In this document: positions 3,155 to 22,820 of the stretch, piece after piece | Position numbering within the stretch: the stretch's first letter is position 1 | Layout of the letters: each line of letters begins with the position of its first letter | Source of the DNA: a virus | Direction: 5' to 3' (one strand) | Virus record (IMG/VR): IMGVR_UViG_3300017776_000133 | Location: 1-27,754 of that record | DNA: 27,754 bases | Translations under genes and position numbers: made by a program | The notes under the pieces: model-generated | Told to the model about the DNA's origin: nothing | Seen by the model: the letters and a program-made list of their open reading frames with translations, nothing else | Database searches by the model: none

Positions 3155-3964
3155 ATGGCAAGAAATTTAGTTACAGTAGATCAAGTAGTCAATGACTTTG
3201 TTCTTACGCTAGAGGGTGATGATTACGCAAACAACGCCTCCGACACTCTTATTCACAACTACGCCCTGCGTGGTATTAGGGAGATGGGTTTTGATTTACT
3301 TCAAAGAATACGCTCTATAAAGCTTACAGCAGGATCTAACAATACTGTTGAACTGCCAGATGATTTTGTAGACTTGGTAAAAGTAGGTATTGTAGGTAGC
3401 GACGGGTTGGTGCATGTGTTCGGAGAAAACAAAAACATAAACTACTCTCAGGCTTACAGAACTGATGCTGCAGGAAACTCCATAGATAGTGATGGGGACG
3501 GGGTGTTTGATAGGGTAGACTCCAAAGGTGGGGTAGCTACTGGCGGTGTGTTTGGTGCAGATGACTTCATTGTATTCTCTAACTACATATACCAAAACAA
3601 CATAGGTCAGATCTACGGTTTAGGTGGTGGGTTTTACGAAGGGGAGTATAGGCTTAACCTAGACCAAAACAGAATAGAGTTTTCTTCGAACAGTAGTGTT
3701 AACGAAATAGTAATAGAATATATTGCTGACGAAGCTAGATCAATAAATCCTACGGTACATATCCAGGCTGAAGAAGCTCTTAGAGCATATATCTACTTTA
3801 GAATTATAGAAAGAAAGAGTAGCGTCCCCATGGCTGAGAAGTCTAGGGCACGCTCAGAGTACTATAACGAGCGTAGAAAAGCTAACGCTAGGTTAAAGTC
3901 GTTTGCTAAAGAAGAGGCTCTTAAAACTATTCGTAAGAACTTTAAACAATCACCTAAGTATTAA
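3155..3964 (+). CDS. Head-tail adaptor / tail tubular protein A-like
   Basis: This 269-residue protein has the layout of short-tail adaptors (P22 gp4 or T7 gp11 type). An N-terminal helical part (residues 7-52, with ALRGIREMGFDLLQ) is followed by a strand pair ending in a LPDDFVDLVKVGI turn (about 67-80), a loop domain, and a C-terminal helical region (about 205-265) rich in Arg/Lys. A DSDGDGVFDRVD sequence at residues 111-122 looks like a thrombospondin-3/dockerin-type calcium loop inserted between strands. Its TAA overlaps the ATG of the giant nozzle gene (TAATG at 3962-3966), so the two are translationally coupled, matching the adaptor-then-nozzle order of podoviruses. No motif is diagnostic, so the assignment rests on pattern and position. 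Confidence 0.55.
   Translation: MARNLVTVDQVVNDFVLTLEGDDYANNASDTLIHNYALRGIREMGFDLLQRIRSIKLTAGSNNTVELPDDFVDLVKVGIVGSDGLVHVFGENKNINYSQAYRTDAAGNSIDSDGDGVFDRVDSKGGVATGGVFGADDFIVFSNYIYQNNIGQIYGLGGGFYEGEYRLNLDQNRIEFSSNSSVNEIVIEYIADEARSINPTVHIQAEEALRAYIYFRIIERKSSVPMAEKSRARSEYYNERRKANARLKSFAKEEALKTIRKNFKQSPKY
3485..3520 (+). other. Calcium-loop-like motif within the adaptor gene
   Basis: This stretch encodes DSDGDGVFDRVD (residues 111-122 of the 269-aa adaptor). Its Asp/Gly spacing matches thrombospondin type 3 and dockerin calcium-binding loops. It sits in a Gly/Ser-rich insert, so it is probably surface exposed. Calcium binding is inferred from the pattern alone. Confidence 0.45.
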
Positions 3965-6900: not shown

Positions 6901-9381
6901 CTTCAGCCTGACGATGAACAAGATTACAGAAGAACGGGATGGTGGTTAAGTATTAAAGACAACAAAATACCTGGCTTTACAAGAAACGATATTATAAACG
7001 GGGCTGACTTTTTTTCACAAAGGTGTATAGTAGAAATATATAGGCCTAAACAAAGTGTAGAGCAAAGGGTTTATTATGAGATAGGTAAAAAGTTTGATAT
7101 AATAACAGTGCCAGAAGGTTTTAGAACACATGGGGGCGATAGAAGTAATTCTGTTTCTCTACCGTTCTTTATGATCTTAAGTGGGTCTGCAAGTAGTTTT
7201 TCAACTACCCATAGGCTTTACCGTGGAGACAAGGTAACAACATCAGCCTCTGCATCAGGTCATATATTTATAAGTAATATAATAATGACTGCTCCAAATG
7301 AGTTTACATATATAGTACACCCATCGAATCCTCTTAGCACAACTGTTACAGGTTTGGTTGCTGCGCAGGTAATTGATGATGTGAATAACAACAACAGTAT
7401 ATTCCCAGGGGTTATTACATTAGACAGGGGTGACGTTTATTATAGAATCAGAGAAATGCTTGTAAATGGGCAGCAGTCATACCTAGGGGTTTTACAAGAT
7501 TTAAATTATAAGTATGATCCAAGAAAAGTAGATCAACAAGAGTATGACGCTTTCTTTATAGAAGACTTCAGCGCAAGCGATTTTTTTGATTCTAAAGCTG
7601 TAGATATAGGTAGGGCTCACATAGAAATGCCTGACGCTGGAGAGGTGCAAAGAATATCTTCTATAACATATAGCGATGTAACACCAGCTGATTCTTTAAG
7701 AAACTTTTATTCAAGTTTCAATCCGTCTTTGTTTCCATTTAAAGACTACAACACATCACATGGTTCTATATGTTACATCGTAGATCAGAACGAAACGATT
7801 ATGGTGCTTCAAGAAAACAAAGTTGTAAGCACTCCTATAGGTAGAACTTTAATAGAGGACGCTGGAGGTGGACAGTTGGTGACGTCAACAAATGTGTTAG
7901 GTACAGATACTTTTTATGCAGGGGAGTACGGTCCAGGTATGCAGCCAGAAAGTGTACAACATGTTTTTGGTAAAGTTTATTTTGCAGATGTTTCTAGTGG
8001 CGTTGTTGTAGAAATTAGCGGCAAAGGAATAAAAACTATTAGTTCCGCTAGTATGGAGTCTTATTTTTCTGATAAGTTTTCTGAGCTATCGTCTTTGTCG
8101 CAAACCTTAAAACTGCCTGGAGGCTATGATCCAGATAATGACGAGTATATATTAACGATAGCTGATATTCACACTGCTAGGGTTAGCGTGCCCTCTGATC
8201 ATGGTGGGACATTAAGTACTGTGCAAAAATCTACTGTTTCTACAGCGTCACAATCAAACACTACGTTTAGTGATGGATTGGTAGATGTAGTGTATAAAAA
8301 AGGAGGTCAAAATACATGGGAGCTTTGCGCAGATAATTTTCAATTAGATGAGTCTAATTGGGAAGACTCTGGTAATGGCGTAGTGTTCTTAGATAAGCTA
8401 GGAGAAAAAGGCAGCGCATATGTAGATACTTCTTACAGGGCAAGCACAAGTTCTATAAGTGTAAAGTTTATGACAGGCAATGGGGCTTTAATAGGTTATG
8501 GTTCTTTATCATTAAAAGATAACTCTATAGATATCCCGTCAACTGTAACAAAACAATCTGATGGCAGTTCTATTAACGTTACTATTACGGGTACAGACAA
8601 TCATGCATCTCCAGAAACGTTGGCTTATTCTACAAAGAAAGAGTTTTGGTTAACATTCTACTCTTTTCTTCCATCGTTATATGAAAATTTACATAATAGA
8701 TTTTTCTCTTTCCAATTAGGCCAGATGTATAGGCATAATGTTAATGAAACTAGAAATAATTTTTACGGGGTTCAATATTCTTCTACTTTAAATATGATAT
8801 CAAGGGCTAACCCTAGCGATGTGAAAGTATATGACGCTATGAGTTTAGAGGGAAATTCTTCTTGGAGCGCTGTGGTGTCTAATACAGAACAGACTACAGG
8901 CGCTATGGCTTCGACAGAGTTTGAAGAACGAGAGGGTATGTACTACAGGCAAATAGAAAAAGACGCTACAGCAGATTCTACAAACAATACATCTCACAAA
9001 GTAGTGTTAGGTCAGGTTGCATCTGTTAGTGGATCTACTGTAACATTTACTTCAAAAATTAGTAACTTGCCGTTTGGAATTGGAGACACTTTGTTTAAAT
9101 TAGAAAGTTCATCAGAGACAAGCCTTAGCGTTACTCTTGCTTCTGTATCAGGGAGGAAGGAAGTTACTGCTAGTGGTACTGTTTCTAACCTGTCTGCAGG
9201 AGATACAGTTATGGCTGTCTCAACAGCAAGTATAAACGGAGATAAAATGAGAGACTACCATGCTCAAGTTGCTTTGACAAATACAGCTACTACACCAGTA
9301 GAGTTGTTTGCTGTAAACATGGTGTACAAGTCTTCTCCTTTACATAATAATTCGTCAATTCCATCGCAAAATAAAAAATAA
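3964..9381 (+). CDS. Giant tail nozzle/muzzle protein (tail tubular protein B-like)
   Basis: At 1805 residues this is much larger than T7 gp12 (about 800) and closer in size to the muzzle proteins of crAss-like phages. The N-terminus (MAIDKLIPQYLNKDEDARLI) and two further segments match patterns I associate with that family: YFTDNRNEPRKINATRAL (about residues 140-158) and FQFTYQYVYDDGEVSALS (about 205-224). The rest is dominated by beta-strand-like stretches, Asn/Ser/Thr-rich turns and few helices, as in stacked beta-propeller nozzles. Near the C-terminus (about 1680-1770) are Ser/Thr/Val-rich Ig-like strands, then the closing phrase ALTNTATTPVELFAVNMVY. It follows the adaptor gene with a TAATG overlap. 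It would form the tail tip and DNA exit channel. There are no enzymatic motifs. Receptor-binding parts could be embedded, because no separate tail fibre gene is seen in the window. Confidence 0.75.
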   Translation: MAIDKLIPQYLNKDEDARLIKGVEMSDALNVRVSHESDGDQGILKNILGNTAIAANSAADAIPTGSGFDGINVVIGSVASEKGKCIYFFLCNIGGTHGIYQYKHTTNTYFKVYENSILNFNYLDFVKADVVINQFGEHLLYFTDNRNEPRKINATRALEGGYSPSIQTAASAELYLTVCKQPPQTPITFEFQTVEDIPNNLKNDLFQFTYQYVYDDGEVSALSMYSQIAASNTHMAFTAGGQEFLEGFDNQLELTVTMSDGPVRKIRIFARRNNEGAFFRIGEIDNFGPGTQQFLFRNDGVYTFAPDQEVNKLYDSVPRKAFTQAISNNRIFYGNYLEGFDNITTDTFCYPVFFPETAAGGLVNIDIGNGLANLTPNALDFTNQGTVPVDTIVINGQVLDQTDPFTSYDTAIPSANFGFQEYKYKVYAEFGLVNQHDNTDSPLVFTGPFQDIDVATNIQDTFDADTDGVHFEIDLSNIQEVLENPNPGSISVSTQLTCDEFMIASHGSFNGANFAFTTNCTVTTNPSLAGSGTTFEVHYLDPNNERNNINNLIPQSPVTFNETIAYDGSDSTTEEFANSISNGLIGALAIVSVKSPSPFELNESPNEFLQMYLGASTCLDRSLGQAGQSTLGRIWLWLQGELRFEIYQTSFQPETQHLRCKVRMQLADLQAYRGVADQTQNVGGETLTNNSFIISGTSLSGDGTVGSMFGNFGSAQGQVFNGAQITCSIGGQDLNGLGDVLRDNHAIDAPAGAAFFDEKITTYWRNYACKGGDVIVTQTGGEATLSFKAAATHELGIVYFDHRNRPSSVQKIDDVNVFPFGHHKRFGNNGPTHIDIRVLHEPPYWATKWAPVYGLNTTYETVLQLPVAEAALGRTITFDGGIYEGSTEKITEGLLNGVDSKIYLSMRPLEGKVNSYKEFKASLKSYEYKEGDVLRVLRYRDENNVLQRPNFDFEITSYKFYQDNDENPIKLSDTSIDGALQPDDEQDYRRTGWWLSIKDNKIPGFTRNDIINGADFFSQRCIVEIYRPKQSVEQRVYYEIGKKFDIITVPEGFRTHGGDRSNSVSLPFFMILSGSASSFSTTHRLYRGDKVTTSASASGHIFISNIIMTAPNEFTYIVHPSNPLSTTVTGLVAAQVIDDVNNNNSIFPGVITLDRGDVYYRIREMLVNGQQSYLGVLQDLNYKYDPRKVDQQEYDAFFIEDFSASDFFDSKAVDIGRAHIEMPDAGEVQRISSITYSDVTPADSLRNFYSSFNPSLFPFKDYNTSHGSICYIVDQNETIMVLQENKVVSTPIGRTLIEDAGGGQLVTSTNVLGTDTFYAGEYGPGMQPESVQHVFGKVYFADVSSGVVVEISGKGIKTISSASMESYFSDKFSELSSLSQTLKLPGGYDPDNDEYILTIADIHTARVSVPSDHGGTLSTVQKSTVSTASQSNTTFSDGLVDVVYKKGGQNTWELCADNFQLDESNWEDSGNGVVFLDKLGEKGSAYVDTSYRASTSSISVKFMTGNGALIGYGSLSLKDNSIDIPSTVTKQSDGSSINVTITGTDNHASPETLAYSTKKEFWLTFYSFLPSLYENLHNRFFSFQLGQMYRHNVNETRNNFYGVQYSSTLNMISRANPSDVKVYDAMSLEGNSSWSAVVSNTEQTTGAMASTEFEEREGMYYRQIEKDATADSTNNTSHKVVLGQVASVSGSTVTFTSKISNLPFGIGDTLFKLESSSETSLSVTLASVSGRKEVTASGTVSNLSAGDTVMAVSTASINGDKMRDYHAQVALTNTATTPVELFAVNMVYKSSPLHNNSSIPSQNKK

Positions 9382-9384
9382 AAA

Positions 9385-10344
9385 ATGACTAACGGAGAAG
9401 AAGAACAAAACGGAACTACATCAGAAGAAACAACTACAGATGATAGCGGTAGCGGTGGTGGCGGAGGTGGTTCAGGAAGAAGAGGTGGGATAACACAAGG
9501 GCAAGCGTCAGCAATAGCAGGGGGAGCTGCAGGATTAGGCTCGCTTGTTGGAGGTATTGCTGGCATGATGAATCAAGGGCAGTTAGAAGCTGATGCTACA
9601 GCTTCTTTAGATGCAGCGTTAGCAGAATTGCGTGAAGCTCGTGCAAGCCAACCGTCTTTATCTACACCGTCAGCTTACTACGAAGGTGTAAAAGGGGCGT
9701 ATGATCAAAGGCTTTTGCAGATGAGGATGGACGATATAAATAGATCGTTAGCTACTACAACGCAAGCTGCTACACAGTTTGGCGCTAGGGGGTTAGGTGC
9801 TTTAGCTGGAGCTACATCACAAGCTCAAAGGTCGCAAAGGGAAGAGGCTCTTACTCAACAGAAGCTTCAGTCTCAAGCTCTTATGCAGTTAGGGGCTGCT
9901 CAAGAAAGAACTACTCAGTTACGAGAGGCTCGTAGTCAGCAAGATTTACAGTATGCATACGACGCTAAAGCTTTAGGCGAGGCAAGGGTAGCCCAAGCTA
10001 ATCAGCAAAGAACACAAAACTTTGCTAACGTAGCTAGTGGTATTGGGGGTATTGCTGGTGCAGCTGTAGGTCTTAGTATGGAAGACGGAGGTATGGTGGG
10101 TTACAGAGTGGGCGGTAAAACTAAAGAAGCTCCATTTGTTACAGAAGGGGAGTTCGATCACGACACAAACAAAAAAGCTGTTGTCGATGAGGAAAGCGGA
10201 GTAAAGGAAGCAGAGCTTACTGGGGGAGAGTATGTATTTAATCCAAAGCAGTCTGAAACATTATTTAAGTTAGCAAAAAAAGGTGATACTCCGCTGCATA
10301 AATATTTATTAAAATTATTACTAAGATTCGAGAAAGATGTCTGA
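9385..10344 (+). CDS. Candidate small ejection (internal virion) protein, T7 gp14-like in layout
   Basis: The 319 residues begin with an acidic Thr/Glu/Asp tract and a Gly-Ser run (residues 21-35). A Gly/Ala-rich hydrophobic helix follows (about 41-62), then a long Gln/Ala/Arg-rich helical rod (about 66-213, coiled-coil-like), and a second Gly/Ala hydrophobic segment (215-231). The C-terminal domain has VGGKTKEAPFVTEGEFDHD and LTGGEYVFNPKQ, a pattern seen in phage virion and tail proteins. Two glycine-zipper segments around a Gln-rich rod recall T7 gp14 and other small proteins that enter the outer membrane during ejection. That role is inferred from layout and from its place before two giant proteins. 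Its last 8 bases overlap the next gene, implying coupling. Confidence 0.55.
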   Translation: MTNGEEEQNGTTSEETTTDDSGSGGGGGGSGRRGGITQGQASAIAGGAAGLGSLVGGIAGMMNQGQLEADATASLDAALAELREARASQPSLSTPSAYYEGVKGAYDQRLLQMRMDDINRSLATTTQAATQFGARGLGALAGATSQAQRSQREEALTQQKLQSQALMQLGAAQERTTQLREARSQQDLQYAYDAKALGEARVAQANQQRTQNFANVASGIGGIAGAAVGLSMEDGGMVGYRVGGKTKEAPFVTEGEFDHDTNKKAVVDEESGVKEAELTGGEYVFNPKQSETLFKLAKKGDTPLHKYLLKLLLRFEKDV

Positions 10345-13300
10345 ACAAGGTACACGATTTAAAACAGGGTTTTTAGCACCCAACATAGACTACGGAGCTA
10401 TCGGTCAAGGTGTAGCGGCTTCTTTTGCTAACCCTATTCTTGCTGTAGCTCAAGAAAGAGCTGTGCAAAGGGACGCTAAGATGAAGGCATTAAACCCAAT
10501 GGGTGCTGCAGGAGAGGCTGTACCAGGACAGATCAATCAAAAGTATCAGGGTGCAGCACAATTGGCTTTGGACATATATCAAGAGGCTGCTACAAATTTT
10601 GAGTTAGATCCTAGCGGTGATAACGAAGCGGCTTTTGCACAGGCTAAAAATCAATACTTAAGCATTGTTGAAGACGCTAAGTTTGGGACACAGTTTATAG
10701 CTAAGAAAACTGCTGAGATAAAAGGCAACACTGAGCTTGCTGAGCAAGGTCTTTTAGAGTCTAACATAAATGCTATTAACGAGTATGCTGTGCCTCCTGT
10801 ATATACAAGGCAGGGTAACGTAGTTATGGTTGGGCAAGGTGTTGACGCAAAAGATTATTTTACTTCAGGCATAACGGCATCCAATGCAGACAACTTGTTT
10901 TACGAAACAGGATCTATAGTAGGTGATTATAAGTTTTTAGGTAGTGCAGTAGGTAAAGAAGTTTTTAACTCGCAGTTTGCTACTAAAAAAGGCTTGAGCG
11001 CCTCGCAAGGTGGATATCAAGAAACGCAAATTGTACCAAACATTAGCCAACCTGTCGTTGTCGGTTTTGACGAGGAGGGTTTTTCTGCAGACGTAGCAGA
11101 TCAATACAATGTATTTGCTAAAAACAACCGTACTATGTGGAACGCCTCTGCTATGGAGGGGTATAAGTCTATGTACGCAGGCAATAGAGACTTGCAGTCT
11201 GGAGATTTAAATGCTATAAACAACACGATGCACCCAGAGCTGTTTAGCTTAAGAAACAGTAAGGGTGTCTCTATATCTAAAGTTACAGGCTTTGAAACTG
11301 ACGGGACTCCTATATATGCTCTAAGCACAGAAGACATAGAAGCAGGTATTGCAAGCGGTGAAATGCAGTTTATTGACGCTGCAACTGGACAGCCCGCAAG
11401 TCTTCCTTCAGGTATAACCATGGATGAAATAAACAACTTTAGAAACGGAGAGACTGTCCATGCAAGAGAATACTACAATACTATACGTGGTCAGTTCCCT
11501 CAGGTAGACGAAGATGCTGTAGCAGAAATGCTATCGGGGGCGACGACAGGTCCTACTGGTCTTACTAGAACAATATTTACAGCGTATAACGCTGATGATC
11601 AACCAGCTGCAGATCCTACTTTAGCGAATACATATCCAGACATGACTGTAGGTAGTATAGCTAGTGGCGGAAACTTTAAATCTGTAACAGTAAGTAACGT
11701 TGGTATAGACGTAGAAAAAGCTATTATAGATTTATCTACAGGGCAAGTGATAGGTTATAAGATTGCTAAAGATCAAGAACTTATAGATAGATTACAGAGT
11801 ATGCAAGGCCGTACACAAAGCCAAACAGATTTGTTAGCGCTGCTTACGGAAGAGGCTGATATATACGTAAACTCTGAAACAGACAGCGCTGCATTTAATA
11901 ACATAAAGCAGCAGCTAGAAGGACAGGAAAGGACAGGTAAGGCTTCTACATACAACACTTTACTAGGTCAAGCTATGAGTCAGCTTGGCCCTATCCTTCA
12001 ACAGCAAAATCAAAGCCAATCAAATCAAAACATAAACAACTTAAACCAAGGAGTTGGAGGAGCAAATCCTTTAGAAGAAGGAGGTGTAATTCCTGGAGGG
12101 ACCAATGGTGATGACGAGACAAACGGTGATCAAAAAAAAAAGAACGGTGATCAGAAGATGAAGTATGATCCAGTTTCAGGGAAAATGGTTCCAGTAAAGG
12201 AGAAAGACTCAGAAGAGTTAAAAACTGTTGTAAACCCTAACATGAGATATGATTCAGTTTCAGGGAAAATGGTTCCAGTAAAGGAGAAAGACTCAGAAGA
12301 GTTAGAAACTGTTGTAAACCCTAACATGAGATATGATCCTGTTTCAGGGAATATGGTGGAGATAACCGACGAAGAACAGATAGATGAGCCTGTTATAGAA
12401 GATATTCTTAATCGACCATTAGCTCCTGAAGTACTCCCAGGTAAGGAAGCAGGCCCTATAGATACTGGTGTTGAAACGCCAAACCTTCTTGCTCAAATAG
12501 TTTCTTATAACGAGCCTACAAGAAAAGAAAAAAGAAAAGCAAAAAGGAGTCGTAAAAGAGATGATAAAGACATAGCTAGGATGACTAAGGAAGCAGGGGG
12601 GCAGGAAGTTATTGATGAGTTTAAGCAAGAGTTCGAGGAAACTTTAGCAGAGCAAGTCGCTTTAAACGCTGAAAATAAAAAAGCTGAAATTGAAGCTGAG
12701 GCAAAGCGTATTGAAGAGCAGAAAGCTCTAATTGCAAATGGCTTAACAATGTCTGATGAAAAAATTACTGAGTTTATGGGGGGTTATTTACAGGGGCTTG
12801 TACCAAATCCATTTAATCCTGACAACCAAGAGCAGTATGATAATGCAGGACTTTTAGCTCAAGGCTCAGATACTTATGAGTTTGATTTGGCTAATATGAT
12901 TTTAAGATTTGGAATGCCAGGAGAAGGAACAGAGCACTACGAAGCTGCGCAAGCTCTTGACATAAACAAGTATGGAATTACAACAGCAGAGTTTGGTGCA
13001 GCAATGCCTAACACGGCTACTCTAATTAATAGAGGAGCACCATTAAGTGATTTTATAGACTTTAATGAGTCTAAAGAAAAGCAAGCTCTATCTCTTCTGA
13101 CTAACGTATTTAATTTAGGGGAAACAGAAGGAGATATAGTGGAGGATATTGAGCAGATGTTTTTAAATGTAACAACGGCAGATCCTACTAACCCTTTATT
13201 TTCAACGGAAGCAGAAGCTCAAACTTATTGGGATAATTCTGTAGATCAATTAGCAGAAGAAAAAGCTCTTAAATACCAAGATTATAAACAAGAAACAGAT

Positions 13301-13888
13301 ACTACTTTAAAAGCGGCGAAGAAAAAAGAATATTATAACGTTGATCCAGTAATGGCATGGTGCGCTATTTTCATTGGTGATTTAATGTTGCAAGCTGATC
13401 CAGAGCAAGATATTCCTCAGGATGTAAGTGGAGATAGATTTGGTGCTGTTAGAGCGAAAGCTTATGCAAGTGTAGGAGATAATATTTTTGATAATCCTAG
13501 CCTAGATATTCAAGATAACAATGATCAAATTATTACATCTGCAGGAGCTAGAGTAGGAGATGTTGTTGTGATGAAAAATGAGTATGGAGGAAATCACGTT
13601 GGTTTATATGCTGGTATGACAGAGGATGGGGATGTATTACTTTTCGGTGGTAATCAAGGTGATAAAGTTTCTTTAATAAGAGTAACTCCATTTGAGATGA
13701 AGTATAAAAACGCAAAAGAAACTAAAATGGAAAATGGGGTTCAAGTTGAAAATGACACAGTTCGCACAGGAATTATTTCTATTAGAAGAGTCACTGCTCC
13801 TTTATTAAATCCAGCAGAAGCTGAAGCAATAAGTATATTAGCTGTACAAGGAGGTGCTGTTGCTCCAGAAGGCGAATCAACTAGATAA
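10337..13888 (+). CDS. Ejection protein with C-terminal NlpC/P60-like (TIGR02594-type) murein hydrolase domain
   Basis: This 1183-residue protein is predicted to be packaged and to open the cell wall during DNA entry. The first ~550 residues look like an extended virion protein, mostly helical and Gln/Ala-rich. A low-complexity Gln/Asn/Gly linker (about 550-605) and 28-residue tandem repeats (608-675) follow, then a Lys/Arg/Glu-rich helical stretch (about 720-800). The last ~180 residues carry the hydrolase module: Cys1009 in MAWCAIF, GDVVVM, His1087 in GGNHVGLY, and Asn1106 in LFGGNQGDKV. This Cys-His-Asn arrangement matches TIGR02594/CHAP-like amidase-endopeptidases. The module's DNA favours ATT for Ile and GGA for Gly, whereas the N-terminal half favours ATA, hinting at a separate origin. 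The gene sits in the ejection block, in the slot where T7 has transglycosylase gp16. The domain call is strong; the ejection role is inference. Confidence 0.75.
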   Translation: MSEQGTRFKTGFLAPNIDYGAIGQGVAASFANPILAVAQERAVQRDAKMKALNPMGAAGEAVPGQINQKYQGAAQLALDIYQEAATNFELDPSGDNEAAFAQAKNQYLSIVEDAKFGTQFIAKKTAEIKGNTELAEQGLLESNINAINEYAVPPVYTRQGNVVMVGQGVDAKDYFTSGITASNADNLFYETGSIVGDYKFLGSAVGKEVFNSQFATKKGLSASQGGYQETQIVPNISQPVVVGFDEEGFSADVADQYNVFAKNNRTMWNASAMEGYKSMYAGNRDLQSGDLNAINNTMHPELFSLRNSKGVSISKVTGFETDGTPIYALSTEDIEAGIASGEMQFIDAATGQPASLPSGITMDEINNFRNGETVHAREYYNTIRGQFPQVDEDAVAEMLSGATTGPTGLTRTIFTAYNADDQPAADPTLANTYPDMTVGSIASGGNFKSVTVSNVGIDVEKAIIDLSTGQVIGYKIAKDQELIDRLQSMQGRTQSQTDLLALLTEEADIYVNSETDSAAFNNIKQQLEGQERTGKASTYNTLLGQAMSQLGPILQQQNQSQSNQNINNLNQGVGGANPLEEGGVIPGGTNGDDETNGDQKKKNGDQKMKYDPVSGKMVPVKEKDSEELKTVVNPNMRYDSVSGKMVPVKEKDSEELETVVNPNMRYDPVSGNMVEITDEEQIDEPVIEDILNRPLAPEVLPGKEAGPIDTGVETPNLLAQIVSYNEPTRKEKRKAKRSRKRDDKDIARMTKEAGGQEVIDEFKQEFEETLAEQVALNAENKKAEIEAEAKRIEEQKALIANGLTMSDEKITEFMGGYLQGLVPNPFNPDNQEQYDNAGLLAQGSDTYEFDLANMILRFGMPGEGTEHYEAAQALDINKYGITTAEFGAAMPNTATLINRGAPLSDFIDFNESKEKQALSLLTNVFNLGETEGDIVEDIEQMFLNVTTADPTNPLFSTEAEAQTYWDNSVDQLAEEKALKYQDYKQETDTTLKAAKKKEYYNVDPVMAWCAIFIGDLMLQADPEQDIPQDVSGDRFGAVRAKAYASVGDNIFDNPSLDIQDNNDQIITSAGARVGDVVVMKNEYGGNHVGLYAGMTEDGDVLLFGGNQGDKVSLIRVTPFEMKYKNAKETKMENGVQVENDTVRTGIISIRRVTAPLLNPAEAEAISILAVQGGAVAPEGESTR
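12158..12361 (+). repeat. 84-bp tandem repeats (2.4 copies) inside the 1183-aa virion gene
   Basis: Units start at 12158, 12242 and 12326. Units 1 and 2 (84 bp, 28 residues each) differ at 4 of 84 positions. Unit 3 retains only about the first 36 bp before diverging. Each unit encodes a segment starting MKYDPVSGKMVPVKEKDSEE or its variant. The length is a multiple of three, so the frame is kept. The repeats form a hydrophilic linker before the C-terminal half. Confidence 0.9.
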
Positions 13889-13898
13889 TTAAATAAGC

Positions 13899-16800
13899 AT
13901 GAACGGATTTACAGAATATCAAAACAATATATTCAATATTGTAAAGGACGCTGGATACGTAGGAACCCAAGATCAGCTGTTTGATATGATGCAACAGCAG
14001 ACATATTTTGACAGTACGTTTAATCTTGTTAGACAAGCTGGCTTTGAGGGTAACGAAAGGGATTTTATTTTCTTAGCTGGCGTAGCCCCAAAAAAAAAAG
14101 ATTCAGCGCTATCGGCAGAGTACTCTACTCTATTAGGATATGGTGTAGAAGGTGGAGGTTTAGATGTTCCAACGGACAGTACTATTGCACCTTCACAAAG
14201 GGAGAACGATCTGTCACGATTGGCGTCACGACAAGAGGCTCTTCAAGGTGATTTCTTTGAGGGTATATTCGGGAGTAGAACAGATCCCATAGACGGTGAT
14301 AACTTTACTGGTGTAGGCGGATTAAGGTCAGAAGAAAAGGATAGATTCCATGAGCAGTCTAGGTTGGACATTGCCGAACAGTTTTCTTCTGAATCCGTTG
14401 GTAACGGTTTTGTTGCCACAGAGGGAGACTTAAGTAATGTAGATTACGAAAACTACCACTTAGCAAAAAAATGGTTAACAAGCAGAGGAATAGAGTTAGG
14501 CACTCCCGTAGGACCTGGTGATATTGCTAGCTTTAGTAACGAGATTTATGATACATTTAGAACTAACTCTTATGTAACCAACACAGGCACAACAGCGGAT
14601 AACTTTGAAGCTATTATTCAAAACAGTGGATTGCTTATGGAGGATGCTAACTCTACTTTAAATGTAGAGATGAGGAAGCAAGCTATAGTTTCTAATACAT
14701 TTGACATAGGCACATATAGTAGTGCTGTTGTAGCTGAGGTGCCTACAATAGATACCGAAGAGGGAGCAAGTTTTTTTTATGAGCCACACCTTAATGAGTT
14801 TAACACATCTTACATTCCCACCAATGAAGAAGAGTTAACTTTAGCTCAGGGAGGGATGCCAGAAAAGCTAAACACTTTTGAAAAGGCATCTGAGTACTAT
14901 AGTGCTTTTGGAAAAGAGTTAACAGCAGAGGAGTACAATAAAGTCGCTGGATATTACACAGCTAGATCTGAGGTTATAGAAGCTTTAGATAATAAAGGTA
15001 AGGTTCAATCTCACATAGAAATTTTTGTAGATGAATTTTCTGCAGCTACTACTAGGGCTGAACAAGAGGCTGTTTTAAATCGAGAAAGAGATCGTGAAGC
15101 TACTGTTATATCCACATATAACGAAGCAAATGAAGTGTTAGGAATAGAGAGAAGAGCTTACGATATTTTTGATGTGGTTATGCAAATGTCTATGGACGAG
15201 GTGTTTATGAATGGCGATACTGCAATAAATAGATATAGACAAAGCGCTGAGTATTATGGGAGGAAGTTAGATGACGTAACATATTGGAAAAACTTATATG
15301 CAACAGGGGGCATGATTGCTTATGGGTTTATTGATTTAGGTAATATGATAGGACTTACTGACGCAACTTCTGAAAGTATGCTTCTATCACAAAAAATTAG
15401 GGGTGGAAATCTGATAGCAGGAGGAGGGTTTAGAGACATATACGGAAGGGAGTTTGAGCCTGACATGTTTACTTGGAATGAGCTTGCTGCAGCTATGGAT
15501 CAAAACAAAAAACTAAGAGAGGGTTTAAGTCTTGAAGAAATAGAGAGAGGTATTTTTGGAAATATTACACTTGGACCTTATCATAATGAAAAGGCAGCAG
15601 CTACATTATTTTTAGATGGCGTTGCAGCTGCTGTACCTCAGATTGCTGGACAAATAGTTCTGACGGTTTTAGGCGCTCCAGAGGTAGCGTTAGTTGGTTT
15701 TGCTGGAAGTACTACAGGAAGTGCGTATAGCGATATGAAAGACAATCCAAATTTAACTATGGCAGAAAAGATTTTATACTCTTCTCTCATGGGTGGGTTT
15801 GAGTATGTGTCAGAAAAAATATTTATGAAGCAAGAGGTTATCTCTGCCAATGCTATACGTAGAATGTTTGGCATAGGAGTAAAAGATATTGCCCAAGAAA
15901 CAGTAAAGACAACAGCAAGGAAGGGGGTGTTAGGAGCTATAGGGACAGGTTGGAGAAAAACTACGGGAAATAGAGTGTTTAAGTTTTTTGAAGAGGGTAT
16001 AGAGGAGGGGTTGGTTTCTTTTGCAAGTCAGCACCTTACTAATTATGCTGAACGTACAGCTTTAGATAGGGAGATTTCAAGTTTACAAACAAGGTTAAAT
16101 ACAGAAGACATAGCTGATGACGTAGCGTCTAATTTAAGATCACAGATAGCAGGTAAAGAAATAGAGAAAACTAATATAAAGTATAACTATATTGAAACCC
16201 TTGATGCTTTTGCTATAGGTACTGCAGCAGGAGGTATACAAATGGGTATTGTAAGAGCGCCCTCTTATATAGCTTCGAAGTTTAATTTTAAAGATCAACT
16301 AGCTTTAGAAAATAAATATGAAGCTTTACAAAAAAAATTAGCCAAAGAAACAAACTCTGAAAAGAAAGCTCAGATAAAACAAGAGATGCTTGAGACGCAG
16401 GACCAGATGTGGAGGGTGTCAGCTAGAGACATGGCTTTTTTAGCAAATATTACTGATGAGGATCTTACGGAGATAAGTGGGTATAATACTCGTATCAGAA
16501 AAAATAGAAGGAAAGCTTTTGATACTAGAAAAAACTTAGAGGAAGCAAGAAGCCAAGGCAACGAGGATGCTGTTGCTGTGTACGAAGCAGAGCTTTCAGC
16601 TTTACAAGCAGATACAAAACAAGCTTTTGAAGCTAAGTTTAATATAGAAGGTAAGTACTCACAGAATCAATCTTTCCTAGATCAAAACTTAGAAGATCCT
16701 GAAACTCAAGCTGTTATAGATGAGGTGGGTAGAGTAGATCCAGATATAACAGATTACGGGAGAGTGAGTAGAGGAAATTCAGTAGAGCTTACTGGTGAAA

Positions 16801-19800
16801 ATGCTAACAGCGTTATAGATAGAATTATTAACGCTGGTAAAATTATATCTACTAAGTTTTCTTCTCGTGAAGAAATTATACGTGGACTTCAAAACGTAAA
16901 GAAAGTAATACAAACTGTCGTAGGTCAGGGAGGTAAGGTTTTCATTCATGGTACAGCTAAAGCTTTTGAAAAAGCTACAGGGGCAGATGTATCAAGAGGT
17001 ATTCATCTAAAGGATGGCAATCAAGTGCACCTTTTCTTACCTGCTTTAAAAGCAAATACAGCATACCACGAAGCTTTTCACTCTGCTGCTATGCAGATCG
17101 ATGAGAAGCAAGGTGCAGGGACAGCGTTGCGTAAGCTTGCACGCCAGTTTGCTATGGCTTTACCTAATGCTAAAAGATATTTAGCTTTTATTAGCGAGTA
17201 CCTTACTGAAGAGCAACAGGCTTTATCAGAGGTAGCTGTAACAGACGAGCTTGCTAGAAAGTTGTTGTCACAAATCGTAGAGCAAAATCCAGAAGCTGCT
17301 AAGGAACTTGTTATGGAGATACTCGCTGACATCACTAACGGTGATTTGTCAGCGGAGTATAAGCAAGGTCTTATCTCATCACTAAAAAATTATGTAGGTA
17401 GATTGTTTGGTGCAGAGTTTAAAAACCCTACGTTAAAGAACGTAGCTGACGCTATTAAGTTTGTTACTAGCACTATGGCAGAAGGCTTTGGTGTTGCTGG
17501 CATGCAAAGGCTAGCCGAAGCTACTGAGGGGCTGAAAGACGTACCAACAGTAACCACTGATGATGAGGCTGAAGAAGCTCAAGCAGAGCCGACGCCTGAT
17601 CCAGCAATAGCTTCTGAGGTAGAGTCTTTAAATGAATCTGAATCAAATGACAATACAGCAGAGGAAGGTAAGAGCGCACAGAAGATTGTAGAAACTGTAG
17701 CTGACATGCTTACAGAGGATGGGTTTACCTTGGTTATGGAGGGAAAGGGTAAGAACAAAAAGCTTGTTTTAAAACGATCTAAGCAAGTCAACTTGTTTAA
17801 GATGAAGAAGGATGAGATAATTAAAGTTCTTCAGGATAGCGGTATGAAGAAAGAGCAGGCAGAAAAAACATACAAAAATGCTGTTCAGTTTGCTAGGGGA
17901 AGGAGAGCTGCTAGGAAAGAGTCAGCTAAGATAGCCTCTCAAGCTAGACGTAGACAAGGCAATCTATCTACAGAGGCTAAAAATCTACGTAAAGAATTGC
18001 AAAATCTTAAGGACAAGTCTAAAAGTTTGCAGGAGTTCTTTAAGAAAGCCCAGGCTCTTATCAAAGAACGTATGAAAGATAGGAAGACGTCTAATAAGTT
18101 TAGTGCTACACAGCTAAAAAGCTTTTTCGCTATAGCTGGGCAGATGGCACGAACTTCAGCTAAGAAACTTTCTGAAAACGATCTCGATATTATAGACTCA
18201 TTCCTCGATAAGCTAGCTACTATATTCGATAAGCAAGATGCAAGGAAAGCGATGGACGATCACCTTAACCTTGTTAAGAGTATGCGTAGCCTGCAGAAGA
18301 CTTTGGTTAGAAAGTCTAGACAAAAAGACTTTGGAGCATACCGTGCTCTTGCAAGAATTGTAGCTGGGATAGACGCTTCGCTTATCCCTGTTGATCAAAT
18401 GCAGTCGTTCTCTGACTTTGTTAACGACGTCAACAACAGTATGAAGAGGGCTAGGTTTAGCAAAGACGAAGAAGGTAATCTCGTTGTAACAGAGTCAAAC
18501 CTCAAAGAAGTAAAATCTATGATGGCTATAGCTACAAACTTTAAAGCTATAGAAGAAACAGAAAGGGATGCAAACTTCAGAGCTAGGGCAACAAAAGCTG
18601 TTGAAGCGGCAAAGAAAGCTGGGAAGTCAACGACGTTTGCAGAAGAATATACAGCTCTACTGGAGAAGTATCAGAGAAGTAGGCTAAGCCCTACACGTAA
18701 GAAGATTGAGGATACAGCAAAGAAGCTAGGCCTTGACGTAAACAATGTGCAAGATCTAGAGGTTATACTTGATGAGCTGGCTAAGGATAGTGCTGAGTTA
18801 GCAGAAGATAAAAAGGAACTTATTTTATCTGACGCCATCATCCCAAGAGTTATGGCTAACCTTGAGGAGTTGCTGCAGGAAAAGTCGTTTAGAACAATAC
18901 TAGGTTTGTTTAGTATGGACAACGTTTCTGTACCAGAACTTAAGGCTAGACTTATGCAGCTTGATATGAGGCACTTAGCTGCTTTGGAGTATAAGATCAA
19001 TGACTACTTAGTAAACTCTTCTACCATAGGTCTTGGATACTTAGCGTCTATAGTAAGGGGCAAGATATCTTTAGCTAGTGATATCAAAGCTCTTGTAGCA
19101 AAAGGGGTTAGATCTAAAGACAGATCTTACGGAAGCTTTGCCGATAACGTTCCTTCATTTATACGTAACGTATTTAAAGTAGGTAACGTTGATGTAGCTA
19201 AGATATTAGTAGCTATAGGCTTCCAAGATGTTATGTCTAGCGTAAACTTGCATGAGCAGGCTCATATGGAAAGAGTCACTGCTTTACAAAACAAGATCGA
19301 TGAGATAACAGAAAAAGGTGGTGAGATAACGTCAGACTTATCCAATGCTATAGCACAGATATTCTCTATGGCTAATCAAAAACCAGAAGCTTTATCAGAG
19401 GCAGAATGGTTTATGAACCTACGTGACGCTATGGACTCTACCATTCAAGAGTACGAGGTAGAGCAGTCAGATATATATGATCCAGAAACTATACAAGAGT
19501 TTAAAGACGCTCGTGAATATTTGTTCGGGCAGACTAATAACCTGCAGGAACTGTTAGATAAAGTTAGAAACGAAAGAACAGACATCGTAGAAATCGTAGA
19601 CTTCTTATCTCAGATGCATGAGTCTATGCGTCCACGCTTTGAGCAGTTTACAGAAAAATATCTAGGAAAAACTTTAGAGGTATTAGAAAACTACACCCCG
19701 TTTAAGGTTAGGAAGAAAGGCTTTGATGATCAGTTAGATTCTGTTATGGAAATACGTAGACAACTGATAAGTGCTCTGAGTAGTGCGGGTAACAGTAATT

Positions 19801-21935
19801 ACACAAAGACTCCTGGCGCTACATTTGAAAGGGAAGCAAGAGCCGTCGGTGGAGATTCTGTTTTAGGATTAAACTTCTTGAAAATAAACGAGGCAACGCT
19901 GAGACAGAACTCGTTTATTATGATGTCGCTTGAGGATGTGCTTGCTATGAAGTATGCTTTCCAAACTGAAGCTATGCAGGGGCTTATGCCAAAAAGCATA
20001 AAGGCTAAGCTGTCAGAGATGATAGACAACTACCTTGTTGCTGACGCTACAGAAGTTCCGTTTATATTCCAGAAAAATATAAAGATTGCTGGTAGAAAAA
20101 TACGTAACCCCTTTGAAATGTTTAGGGTTGCTGCTGTAGTAAATGCTTTTGGTGGTGTGTTTGTACAGTTTATCAAACAGTCTACTGTTATGCTGTCTGC
20201 TTTTGCAAACACTAAAACACTACAAGGTAAAGCATACCTCATGAGAACTTTTGGGGAGATGCTAGCTCTTACTTTTGTAGGTAAGGATAGAGATGGGAAA
20301 CTTAAAGTTCTTAGCGATCCTAAAGTAAAAATTAATGACGGAAGATATGAGCTATTGCGTCACACCACTTTATTCTTAAGAGACTACAAGGCTGGTAATA
20401 TAGATCCGTTTACAGGTAGGGTAGAGTTTGATAAGAGTCGACTTGATAAAACTCGTGACTGGCTGCAAGACAAGTCTATGTGGACACTAACAACGACAGA
20501 TAAGGTAGCTGCTATAAGTTCTTTCTATGCTTTCTATGCAGACTTCTTATTATCTGAGGGTGTAGTAAATGATATTTCCGAAATCAATTGGGAGCAAGAG
20601 GCTGCTAATCCAAACATGGAGGCTATAGCGTATGCAGAAAACATAGTTAGTAAAGATCAGAATGTTTCTAGCTCTAGACTTGCAGCAAATGTTTATAAAA
20701 ATAAAAGTGCGTTTGTAAGATTTTTAGTGCAGACTATGCTCCCGTTCCAAAGCTTTGCCATCAATACAAAGAGATCGATTACTGGTGATGTTGGTCGTAT
20801 AATTGATCCTTCTAACGCTCAAGCTAGAAAAGATGGGTTGAGAGGACTAGCAGGAACAACAGCTTCTTTGTTTGTGTTTGCATATATGTCTAGGGTGATG
20901 ACAGCAGTAATATCTGAATTTGTTAAAAGCTTCGGAGATGATGACGATGAATCTAACTTAGATGAAATACTTACAGATACTAAAACAATAAGGGAGTCTG
21001 CAGTACAAACGGTATTAGACGCAGTTCCACTTCCGTCTACACCAGCTATCGATAATAAAGTAAAAGACTTTTTTAACTACTACTTGTTCTTTAACGCTTC
21101 AGACTATGATGCCGCAGGACTTGAAGATAAAGATGCCTTTGAACTGTTTAAACAATACGGTGATGCTGTAACAACTTACGGTGCAGGCACAACAGATAAA
21201 AAAGGACCAGTACAAAACGCTATACTTACAGCGCTAAGTGTGCTTGGACCTGGCGGTAAGTTTGTAATGGACTTAGAAAAGATGCTTGAGCCTACACTCA
21301 ATGGCGGAACTTCGTACACTACAGGTTCGGGGCGTGAAAGGTTTATTAGACCAGAAGATCAAGCAGATTTTATGTTGAGCAACACGTTAAGAACGTTGTT
21401 AGCTTTTTCTAACTTAGCAGGTGTAGGAGTTAAGGAGCTTGATTACGTAGCAAAAGCATTAGATGATGTGCCTAAAGACAGGGCGTTATCTTCAGAGGAA
21501 CAGCTTGCAGCATTTGAAACTATACTGATTGCAATAGGTGACGATCCTGAAACTCTAGCTACTATAGAAGCTGCAGAAGGTGCAGGACCAGGAAGGTTGC
21601 TTAGCATACTACAGAAGCAAGCTGAAGAAGATCCAGTGACTTTAGCCAGAGGGTTGAGCCAGTCTAAATTTAAGTCAGCACTAAAGGGAGCTGTAGGAGA
21701 CAAAGCTGTAGAGATGATCTTCCCTCAAGAGTACAAGAAATATTCTGCAGAGGTGCGCAGAATATCTAGACGTTCCCCAAAAGAAATAGCTGCTGTTATC
21801 AGGGGTAAGGAAGGCGAGATGAATCCTGACGACTTCAAAAGGTATAATAATTTCTTACTATATTACATCGCTTTTAACTCTGAAGCAACGTTAAACAACG
21901 TGCTGATAGAGTTAGAAATAAACACAGTAGAATGA
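13899..21935 (+). CDS. Giant internal/ejection protein (polyvalent-like) with HExxH metallopeptidase motif
   Basis: At 2678 residues this is the largest gene here. Two ~29-residue repeats open it (FNIVKDAGYVG at 12-22, FNLVRQAGFEG at 41-51), a pattern I know from large virion proteins of Bacteroidetes phages. A Gly/Ala hydrophobic region (about 567-612) is followed by AYSDMKDNPNLTMAEKILYS (about 608-627), common in large ejected proteins. A charged coiled-coil region (about 790-910) precedes a zincin-like module with H1057-E-A-F-H1061 and a possible third ligand near Glu1140 in VMEILADI. Long Lys/Glu-rich helices fill about 1250-1900. A second hydrophobic region lies near 2316-2346 after VRFLVQTMLPFQSFAIN. 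It is probably packaged and injected, with the peptidase processing virion, periplasmic or host proteins. It ends in an ATGA overlap with the endolysin gene. No RNA polymerase DxDGD-type motif was found. Confidence 0.7.
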   Translation: MNGFTEYQNNIFNIVKDAGYVGTQDQLFDMMQQQTYFDSTFNLVRQAGFEGNERDFIFLAGVAPKKKDSALSAEYSTLLGYGVEGGGLDVPTDSTIAPSQRENDLSRLASRQEALQGDFFEGIFGSRTDPIDGDNFTGVGGLRSEEKDRFHEQSRLDIAEQFSSESVGNGFVATEGDLSNVDYENYHLAKKWLTSRGIELGTPVGPGDIASFSNEIYDTFRTNSYVTNTGTTADNFEAIIQNSGLLMEDANSTLNVEMRKQAIVSNTFDIGTYSSAVVAEVPTIDTEEGASFFYEPHLNEFNTSYIPTNEEELTLAQGGMPEKLNTFEKASEYYSAFGKELTAEEYNKVAGYYTARSEVIEALDNKGKVQSHIEIFVDEFSAATTRAEQEAVLNRERDREATVISTYNEANEVLGIERRAYDIFDVVMQMSMDEVFMNGDTAINRYRQSAEYYGRKLDDVTYWKNLYATGGMIAYGFIDLGNMIGLTDATSESMLLSQKIRGGNLIAGGGFRDIYGREFEPDMFTWNELAAAMDQNKKLREGLSLEEIERGIFGNITLGPYHNEKAAATLFLDGVAAAVPQIAGQIVLTVLGAPEVALVGFAGSTTGSAYSDMKDNPNLTMAEKILYSSLMGGFEYVSEKIFMKQEVISANAIRRMFGIGVKDIAQETVKTTARKGVLGAIGTGWRKTTGNRVFKFFEEGIEEGLVSFASQHLTNYAERTALDREISSLQTRLNTEDIADDVASNLRSQIAGKEIEKTNIKYNYIETLDAFAIGTAAGGIQMGIVRAPSYIASKFNFKDQLALENKYEALQKKLAKETNSEKKAQIKQEMLETQDQMWRVSARDMAFLANITDEDLTEISGYNTRIRKNRRKAFDTRKNLEEARSQGNEDAVAVYEAELSALQADTKQAFEAKFNIEGKYSQNQSFLDQNLEDPETQAVIDEVGRVDPDITDYGRVSRGNSVELTGENANSVIDRIINAGKIISTKFSSREEIIRGLQNVKKVIQTVVGQGGKVFIHGTAKAFEKATGADVSRGIHLKDGNQVHLFLPALKANTAYHEAFHSAAMQIDEKQGAGTALRKLARQFAMALPNAKRYLAFISEYLTEEQQALSEVAVTDELARKLLSQIVEQNPEAAKELVMEILADITNGDLSAEYKQGLISSLKNYVGRLFGAEFKNPTLKNVADAIKFVTSTMAEGFGVAGMQRLAEATEGLKDVPTVTTDDEAEEAQAEPTPDPAIASEVESLNESESNDNTAEEGKSAQKIVETVADMLTEDGFTLVMEGKGKNKKLVLKRSKQVNLFKMKKDEIIKVLQDSGMKKEQAEKTYKNAVQFARGRRAARKESAKIASQARRRQGNLSTEAKNLRKELQNLKDKSKSLQEFFKKAQALIKERMKDRKTSNKFSATQLKSFFAIAGQMARTSAKKLSENDLDIIDSFLDKLATIFDKQDARKAMDDHLNLVKSMRSLQKTLVRKSRQKDFGAYRALARIVAGIDASLIPVDQMQSFSDFVNDVNNSMKRARFSKDEEGNLVVTESNLKEVKSMMAIATNFKAIEETERDANFRARATKAVEAAKKAGKSTTFAEEYTALLEKYQRSRLSPTRKKIEDTAKKLGLDVNNVQDLEVILDELAKDSAELAEDKKELILSDAIIPRVMANLEELLQEKSFRTILGLFSMDNVSVPELKARLMQLDMRHLAALEYKINDYLVNSSTIGLGYLASIVRGKISLASDIKALVAKGVRSKDRSYGSFADNVPSFIRNVFKVGNVDVAKILVAIGFQDVMSSVNLHEQAHMERVTALQNKIDEITEKGGEITSDLSNAIAQIFSMANQKPEALSEAEWFMNLRDAMDSTIQEYEVEQSDIYDPETIQEFKDAREYLFGQTNNLQELLDKVRNERTDIVEIVDFLSQMHESMRPRFEQFTEKYLGKTLEVLENYTPFKVRKKGFDDQLDSVMEIRRQLISALSSAGNSNYTKTPGATFEREARAVGGDSVLGLNFLKINEATLRQNSFIMMSLEDVLAMKYAFQTEAMQGLMPKSIKAKLSEMIDNYLVADATEVPFIFQKNIKIAGRKIRNPFEMFRVAAVVNAFGGVFVQFIKQSTVMLSAFANTKTLQGKAYLMRTFGEMLALTFVGKDRDGKLKVLSDPKVKINDGRYELLRHTTLFLRDYKAGNIDPFTGRVEFDKSRLDKTRDWLQDKSMWTLTTTDKVAAISSFYAFYADFLLSEGVVNDISEINWEQEAANPNMEAIAYAENIVSKDQNVSSSRLAANVYKNKSAFVRFLVQTMLPFQSFAINTKRSITGDVGRIIDPSNAQARKDGLRGLAGTTASLFVFAYMSRVMTAVISEFVKSFGDDDDESNLDEILTDTKTIRESAVQTVLDAVPLPSTPAIDNKVKDFFNYYLFFNASDYDAAGLEDKDAFELFKQYGDAVTTYGAGTTDKKGPVQNAILTALSVLGPGGKFVMDLEKMLEPTLNGGTSYTTGSGRERFIRPEDQADFMLSNTLRTLLAFSNLAGVGVKELDYVAKALDDVPKDRALSSEEQLAAFETILIAIGDDPETLATIEAAEGAGPGRLLSILQKQAEEDPVTLARGLSQSKFKSALKGAVGDKAVEMIFPQEYKKYSAEVRRISRRSPKEIAAVIRGKEGEMNPDDFKRYNNFLLYYIAFNSEATLNNVLIELEINTVE

Positions 21936-22381
21936 AACTAAGTAGAAACTTTACTCTTAATGAGCTTACCCGTAGCGGGACAGCGCAAAGAAGGGGAATT
22001 GATAATGAGCCAACGGATGTTCACCTTGACAACTTGCAAAGAATTGTAGACGAAATACTGCAGCCTATGCGTGAAGATCTAGGTCCTATCCGTGTAACAT
22101 CTGGGTATCGTAGCCCAAAATTAAATAGGGCTATCGGTGGTAGCTCAAGATCACAGCACTGTAAAGGTGAAGCTGTAGACATACAGTTTTGGGAAGGTGG
22201 TGACATGGACAATAAAGTTATCTATGACTACATCTTAGATAACGAAATTGAGTTTGACCAGATGATAAATGAATTTGACTTCTCTTGGATACATATTTCT
22301 TTAAAAGAAAAAGGAAACAGAAACAGGGTGCTTGAGGCGTATAAAAACGAAGAAGGTAAAACTTGCTATAGAGAAGTATAA
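21932..22381 (+). CDS. Endolysin, peptidase M15 (M15_3, D-Ala-D-Ala carboxypeptidase-like)
   Basis: This 149-residue single-domain zinc peptidase would cleave peptide stems of peptidoglycan to lyse the host. The zinc-binding signature is complete: S74-x-H76 with G79-x-A81-x-D83 (SQHCKGEAVDIQF) and the distal W119-I-H121. The upstream VTSGYRSPKLN (55-65) and the N-terminal FTLNELTRS are typical of the M15_3 family, and the length is normal. It has no signal peptide, so export would depend on the holin-like product encoded next. The ATG overlaps the stop of the giant upstream gene (ATGA), and the holin gene follows 10 nt later, giving a lysis cassette at the end of the late operon. A virion-associated role is less likely. 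Confidence 0.9.
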   Translation: MKLSRNFTLNELTRSGTAQRRGIDNEPTDVHLDNLQRIVDEILQPMREDLGPIRVTSGYRSPKLNRAIGGSSRSQHCKGEAVDIQFWEGGDMDNKVIYDYILDNEIEFDQMINEFDFSWIHISLKEKGNRNRVLEAYKNEEGKTCYREV

Positions 22382-22391
22382 AACTAATCTT

Positions 22392-22820
22392 ATGAAAAAA
22401 ATAAAAGACACAAAGCTAGGTGGTTGGCTAGCCAATAAAGCACCACAAATACTTGATGTGGTAGGAGATCTACTACCAGATAGCGGAGGCTTGGGCGTAG
22501 TAAAAAACCTTATCGATAAAGATCCAAAGGTAGATTCTGCAGATGCTCAAACACAGATAGATGCAGAGGTTAAGTTCCAAGAAAATGTAACTGACCGTTG
22601 GAAGGCTGATATGGGTAGTGATGTTAAGCTGGCTAAGTTGATACGTCCAGTCACGCTTATATGCCTTATGGCTATGTTTATGCTTACTATGTTTATAGAC
22701 AGCATGGATAACGTAGCATTCAATGTGAAGGATTCATACGTATCCCTACTTGAACTGTTAATGCTGACTGCTTTTGGTGCGTACTTTGCAGGGCGTACTA
22801 TCGAAAAGAAAAGTAAGTAA
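22392..22820 (+). CDS. Holin-like membrane protein (GTA_holin_3TM-type layout)
   Basis: The 142 residues comprise an N-terminal soluble part (1-80) with a Gly-rich helical segment (LDVVGDLLPDSGGLGVV) and an acidic Gln/Asp/Lys stretch. Two hydrophobic segments follow at about 84-102 (LIRPVTLICLMAMFMLTMF) and 117-134 (VSLLELLMLTAFGAYFAG), then a basic tail (RTIEKKSK). The RP just before the first membrane segment and the overall layout fit the holin family annotated for gene-transfer agents (GTA_holin_3TM), which is common in marine phages. I chose the ATG at 22392 because the longer frame back to 22332 overlaps the endolysin gene and adds an implausible basic extension. Location directly after the endolysin supports a pore-forming lysis role. 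Its stop overlaps the next start (TAATG). Confidence 0.75.
   Translation: MKKIKDTKLGGWLANKAPQILDVVGDLLPDSGGLGVVKNLIDKDPKVDSADAQTQIDAEVKFQENVTDRWKADMGSDVKLAKLIRPVTLICLMAMFMLTMFIDSMDNVAFNVKDSYVSLLELLMLTAFGAYFAGRTIEKKSK

Follow-up and report, generated by a model that had tools for sequence, protein, structure and literature searches.

A probable three-gene ejection module with exchangeable enzyme domains in a marine podovirus related to flavobacterial phages

Phages with trios of ejection proteins have been described before, as have hydrolases on the middle protein of such trios and zincins in ejected proteins of giant size. In the crassvirus PhicrAss001, the three cargo genes gp45-gp46-gp47 follow directly after the muzzle gene gp44 with the giant gene in the last position, and their products are virion cargo proteins according to mass spectrometry (PMC10172136). 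The schitoviruses N4 (gp52-gp51-gp50) and DEV (gp73-gp72-gp71) also have a small, medium and giant triad: The giant protein carries a zincin-like domain with an HExxH motif and is an RNA polymerase, and the available parts of the sources report no hydrolase on the medium protein (PMC12633501, PMC10925440). HExxH domains in giant ejected proteins are known from the N4 virion RNA polymerase (PMC12633501) and from the polyvalent proteins, for which autoprocessing or an attack on host proteins has been suggested as the role of the zincin (PMC5512222). In phage T7, gp14-gp15-gp16 form the corresponding trio, and the transglycosylase resides at the N-terminus of the largest protein. Finally, gp35 of K1E and K1-5 is a gp15-like protein with wall-degrading activity, in this case reported as a lysozyme; an exchange of enzymes at one site within one lineage is not described in the available part of that source (PMC8954989).

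Here, we have analysed a 27,754-base fragment of a virus record, referred to as the window. Its left part consists of late genes that all point in one direction: a truncated major capsid protein gene, several small structural genes, the gene for a nozzle-like protein of 1805 aa, the three ORFs studied here, and genes for an M15-type endolysin, a holin and a nuclease. The nozzle-like gene, the three ORFs with their domains and the lysis genes lie on the plus strand. The nozzle/muzzle-like tail protein (3964..9381), directly upstream of the module, matches phrog_14478 (virion structural protein, E 1e-106) and phrog_18548 (E 3e-41), and its gene is syntenic with phi38:1 gp97 and with phi18:3 gp114/gp115, the latter two annotated from MS/MS. 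The module itself encodes protein 1, a small Gly/Ala-rich ejection-type protein (9385..10344, 319 aa), protein 2 (10337..13888, 1183 aa) and protein 3 (13899..21935, 2678 aa), 4180 residues in total. Two IMG/VR contigs, L009 and L006, are 99.98-99.99% identical to the window and agree on the reading frames, which are thus sound. An earlier note on this DNA had placed these three ORFs after the nozzle gene and had pointed to a small glycine-zipper first protein, to a Cys-His-Asn murein-hydrolase-type domain in protein 2 and to an HEAFH metallopeptidase-type motif in protein 3: The ORFs are real and located as claimed, protein 1 is rich in glycine, and the two enzymatic features were recovered as putative domains, as detailed below. 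An additional ORF of 134 aa with a TTG start and without a PHROG match separates the capsid gene from the one that follows it (positions 996-1400).

The source of the window is a marine short-tailed phage whose relatives infect flavobacteria. Judged by the major capsid and nozzle proteins, it is close to the Cellulophaga phages phi38:1 (Pervagoviridae) and phi18:3 (Pachyviridae), the Flavobacterium elemo phages, the Maribacter phage Panino, and ctfjg026. In all of these, three genes of small, medium and giant size come after the nozzle genes; those of phi18:3, namely gp120, gp121 and gp123, occupy the same three positions as the module and are all annotated from virion MS/MS. Scans of IMG/VR yielded the close relatives L001-L010, the intermediate relatives L024 and L025, and 80 loci with protein 1. 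The order nozzle-small-medium-giant, counted as protein 1 followed by a protein of 407-1361 aa and then by a giant measuring 1400 aa or more, was found in 54 of the 69 related contigs examined, which are not 54 independent cases since nearly identical contigs are among them; in the others, the contig or locus boundary mostly came first. Three adjacent late genes of increasing size beside a tail nozzle are the arrangement of an ejection module. As a side observation, a gene for a GroES-like co-chaperonin is located immediately 5' of the terminase gene in three relatives (L012:3099-3683, L014:3377-3919, L015:4024-4572).

The earlier note had seen the parallel in T7. A three-gene module of the ejection type is indeed present, and the order, the proposed roles and a murein hydrolase on one member are shared with gp14-gp15-gp16. 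However, T7 is the poorer comparison because gene order, protein sizes and the HExxH motif fit gp45-gp46-gp47 of the crassviruses and gp52-gp51-gp50 of N4 better. In contrast to T7, the window has its NlpC/P60-like domain at the C-terminus of the middle protein, and its giant protein is twice as long. Protein 3 did not match any transglycosylase domain in Pfam or NCBIfam, and this domain is also missing in P22-like members of the wider group (PMC8954989). The likeness to PhicrAss001 has its limits as well: gp45 (842 aa) is larger than gp46 (534 aa), and the RNA polymerase cargo gp49/gp50 that comes next in the crassvirus was not seen in the window.

Protein 1 contains 13.8% glycine and two weakly hydrophobic segments. 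Its profile was iterated from the window protein using metagenomic relatives only, with the cultured phages left out, and searched against 8464 six-frame ORFs. Exactly one ORF was picked in every one of the five cultured or complete phages, always the syntenic one: phi38:1 gp99 (E 3e-9) and the counterparts in Panino (1e-6), elemoA (gp23, 3e-5), phi18:3 (gp120, 7e-5) and ctfjg026 (5e-4). The remaining matches outside the training set were protein-1-like ORFs at further loci, and there were no off-target matches. By this profile match, protein 1 has homologues among the virion proteins of cultured flavobacterial podoviruses, including the MS/MS-annotated gp120 of phi18:3; this is the firmest link of the module to virions. 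Profile comparisons of shallow alignments with the phi38:1 and elemoA counterparts had given no match before the deep profile succeeded, and a scan of genome contigs for protein 1 returned 86 pattern matches with no relative among them. The C-terminus of protein 1 (window positions 10140-10344) has the family-typical TGGEYVFNP and a GEFxH motif; in the family, TGGE occurs in 66 of 74 members and GE[FY][DS]H in 64 of 74, and TGGE is absent from protein 1 of all five cultured or complete phages. For proteins 2 and 3, no sequence link to counterparts in cultured phages was found, and their presence in the virion is therefore deduced from their position.

Protein 2 combines a conserved core with an exchangeable C-terminal part. 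The N-terminal core (residues about 1-560, 10337..12016) is kept to 29% identity in distant relatives, and its predicted model reaches pLDDT values of about 80-93 across most of residues 40-400. The start motif D[YF][GAS] occurs in 50 of 76 proteins at the middle position as compared to 6.1 expected (a redundant set), and no hydrophobic segment was found in protein 2. At the other end, residues about 1000-1155 (13334..13801) form a putative NlpC/P60-like (TIGR02594) domain: Cys1009, His1087 and Asn1106 occur in the order of an NlpC/P60-type site, the profiles TIGR02594 (E 3e-8) and NLPC_P60 (E 3e-4) match, both under their curated cut-offs, and triad order and profile match together place the domain in the NlpC/P60 superfamily. 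With the isolated C-terminal piece, phrog_1259 ('baseplate hub subunit and tail lysozyme') was found at E 8e-10.

The domain is also present in L001, L004 and L007 with W-C-A, H and GGN conserved. L002, L005 and L025 have a GH19 lysozyme in its place, which in L005 matches the PDB endolysin 9ms6 (E 1e-12) and PHROG endolysins (E 2e-26; 2e-24 for L025), the Pfam matches being weak. The middle protein of L024 has both enzymes, with GH19 above the Pfam cut-off (PDB 4ok7, E 4e-12), and L033 has a serine in place of the catalytic cysteine in a variant close to DUF2272 (E 0.001). Between the window and L005, protein 2 is 55-90% identical (42% in one block), and identity drops sharply to less than 30% at about residue 540-600. 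Similarly, the cores of L034 and L033 are 82-98% identical over the first 540 residues and their tails are unrelated. The tail of L034 (12513-13664) matched no known family and may be a new wall-active or other domain; our guess of a pesticin-like lysozyme found no support and was rejected. Most middle proteins of the relatives (407-680 aa) lack a recognisable enzyme. As far as sequence can tell, the hydrolase is thus not a fixed feature of the middle protein, being absent from most relatives and replaced by a different enzyme in close ones; the view of the earlier note that an NlpC/P60-like domain replaces the transglycosylase needs this correction. That GH19 can stand in for the NlpC/P60-like domain speaks for selection on wall cutting at this C-terminal site. 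The window has a dedicated M15-type endolysin (21932-22381; phrog_894, E 2e-39) and a holin (22332-22820; phrog_3427, E 1e-22) in its lysis region (21932..22820), and therefore the protein 2 hydrolase is not needed for lysis.

These observations bear on the question whether protein 2 might instead be an external lysin that is part of the tail tip, with only proteins 1 and 3 being internal. External virion lysins are common, and the best PHROG match of the C-terminal domain is to a baseplate hub/tail lysozyme family. However, in every complete triad protein 2 separates protein 1 from protein 3, the same place is held by the internal proteins gp46 of the crassvirus and gp51 of N4, and since most relatives have a protein without a detectable hydrolase at this position, the basic role of protein 2 is not lysis. 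We therefore regard an external location as unlikely and an internal protein 2 as the better reading.

Protein 3 consists of two conserved blocks (residues 1-1226 and 1240-2678), the first of which is closed by a zincin-like region. This predicted domain (residues about 960-1150, 16776..17348) contains HEAFH at residues 1057-1061 and a candidate third ligand, Glu1136 or Glu1140; a second HExxH sequence (HEQAH) is found at 1785. The pattern T..[YF]HE.[FY]H was present in 64 of the 8464 six-frame ORFs of all loci, all of them giant ORFs of at least 1664 aa, and HE[AG][FY]H together with E[FL][LV]xE about 80 residues downstream is common to giants down to about 20-25% identity. Because the pattern is confined to giant ORFs and the motifs are conserved across divergent giants, HEAFH is not a chance occurrence. 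The predicted model of the region (helix, strands, HExxH helix, helices) has an order of secondary structure elements compatible with polyvalent zincins (PMC5512222). The domain is common but not universal, since HExxH is absent from the giants of the cultured phages phi38:1, phi18:3 and Panino. A zincin profile built from the family, with elemoA gp21 included, finds gp47 of crAss001 at E 4e-5 (calculated for 10,000 sequences), as compared to E 19 for the best of 200 shuffled controls, and gp47 and protein 3 share the motif T.YHEAFH. Of the crassvirus cargo proteins only this zincin part of gp47 was detected; profile comparison of proteins 1 and 2 with gp45 and gp46 gave no match.

Protein 3 shares its position with N4 gp50 and with crAss001 gp47, which is annotated as putative RNA polymerase subunit, and the N4 virion RNA polymerase likewise has an HExxH domain (PMC12633501). 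One might thus ask whether protein 3 is a virion RNA polymerase with the zincin as an accessory. Yet protein 3 has no sequence match to polymerase structures in the PDB and none to polymerase families in Pfam or NCBIfam, and a simple search for a DxDGD-type motif was negative; we regard this candidate as quite improbable. A giant polyvalent protein is the preferred reading.

The two blocks of this giant protein flank a slot just after the zincin motif (residues about 1226-1240, 17574..17618). The slot is nearly empty in the window and empty also in L001 and L004, and it holds 237 aa in L005, 347 aa in L007 and 344-1026 aa in other relatives. Pfam recognised LPD23 in L007, L025 and L092 (E 5e-10 to 6e-9), DUF7178 in L024 (E 8e-26) and ART-PolyVal in L097 (E 8e-7, with bits just under the cut-off), and close pairs have high identity on both sides of the slot and none inside. 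LPD23, ART-PolyVal and other inserted domains in the relatives as well as a zincin in a very large phage late protein are the hallmarks of polyvalent proteins (PMC5512222), which assigns the family to them, whereas the window copy has no Pfam polyvalent domain of its own and shows the zincin-like motif only. That the module is internal but serves mainly head assembly, as core or scaffold proteins whose enzymes act on virion proteins, seems highly improbable to us: P1 DdrB is cleaved before packaging (PMC5512222) and zincin domains can act in autoprocessing, but a peptidoglycan hydrolase that has been swapped for a lysozyme with a different fold is understandable only if the enzyme meets the cell wall, and ART-PolyVal-like cargo is typical of host-directed proteins.

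The C-terminal core of protein 3 (residues 1240-2678, 17616..21935) is 32-96% identical across relatives and had no PDB sequence match below E 0.02; protein 3 contains some membrane-prone segments, which are only weakly hydrophobic. In L002 (3925-11923), the giant gene is split over two ORFs of 333 and 2343 aa that overlap, due to an assembly error or a real frameshift. Searches beyond the family returned little: tblastn of protein 3 against the phage collection found no match, PDB sequence searches linked the module proteins neither to schitovirus ejection proteins nor to gp14, gp15 and gp16 of T7, and Foldseek searches of PDB and BFVD with a modelled piece of protein 3 (residues 470-1220) and with the protein 2 model had no match at E 0.001. 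The earlier note had suggested structure prediction of the complex as a check; with proteins 2 and 3 modelled singly, the secondary-structure order is compatible with a zincin but fold searches did not confirm it. No fold match was found to T7 gp14, gp15 or gp16 or other ejection proteins, with weak models (mean pLDDT 65 and 59, moderately confident at most) and families that diverge fast. VIA-align gave middling Z scores with unrelated, mostly helical proteins; the cell-wall hydrolase 5udm (Z 5.1) over the C-terminal domain of protein 2 and a zincin-fold toxin domain (Z 5.3) over the zincin part of protein 3 were tied with unrelated rows.

Giants that are otherwise unrelated share a short N-terminal leader that ends with KKK, followed mostly by D or E; in many cases it consists of two copies of a motif about 30 aa long. 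In protein 3 this leader (13899..14099, KKK at residues 65-67) has the duplicated motif and may be helical as judged by reading the sequence. Of 45 non-redundant giants, 38 have KKK in their first 120 residues, where its frequency in the remainder of these proteins would predict 2.4; this is a post hoc observation. KKK occurred there in none of 76 middle proteins, and among other ORFs of at least 300 aa it was seen only in further giants and one clade of protein 1. In contrast to most giants of this family, gp47 of crAss001 has no KKK. In phi18:3 (L013:22952-29082), the giant gp123 is without a leader, and gp122, an ORF of its own with 103 aa about 12 bases 5' of gp123, carries the duplicated leader and KKK; gp122-gp123 may be a split gene, a frameshift or a giant with a separate leader protein.

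Taken together, we consider it likely that this podovirus, a relative of flavobacterial phages, encodes ejection (internal virion) proteins in the three genes: The trio is most likely carried inside the virion and driven into the host before the DNA enters. By analogy to T7, N4/DEV and the crassviruses (PMC8954989, PMC12633501, PMC10925440, PMC10172136), we infer packaging inside the capsid and the following order of ejection: (i) The small, glycine-rich protein 1 would leave first and open the outer membrane. (ii) Protein 2 would line the periplasmic path, and its NlpC/P60-like domain would cut the peptidoglycan locally to let the conduit pass. (iii) Protein 3 would enter last and either anchor at or cross the inner membrane so that its enzymatic domains reach the cytoplasm. 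There, the zincin-like domain beside the slot may process protein 3 itself or cleave host proteins: Its position favours the release of cargo, but the slot of the window is empty, and the zincin may just as well be an effector. It is tempting to speculate that protein 3 is a general delivery chassis in which the KKK leader docks or packages the protein, the body crosses the envelope and the zincin frees the slot effector, with protein 2 being fitted with a host-matched wall enzyme; we put this forward as a tentative idea.

In related phages, the wall-cutting enzyme and the cargo segment are swapped, each at a fixed position, and the trio thus resembles a modular device for protein delivery whose general kind is known. 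To call it an undescribed type of ejectosome, as the earlier note had proposed, goes too far: A hydrolase on the middle protein is known from gp35 of K1E/K1-5 (PMC8954989), and HExxH domains in giant ejected proteins are known as well (PMC5512222, PMC12633501). What appears to be new are three features that we did not find in the partial coverage of the literature searched: enzymes exchanged within a lineage at a single joint, a cargo slot of fixed position and the leader ending in KKK. If this reading is correct, DNA delivery in a widespread phage group with many marine members relies on a trio of proteins with enzymes that are exchanged at fixed joints, and nature provides before/after pairs (L033/L034, and the window versus L002/L005) for the roles of wall hydrolase and cargo. 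Moreover, the shared zincin domain would link the flavobacterial-type podoviruses to the cargo proteins of the crassviruses, and the leader would be a testable candidate for a packaging signal of giant virion proteins.
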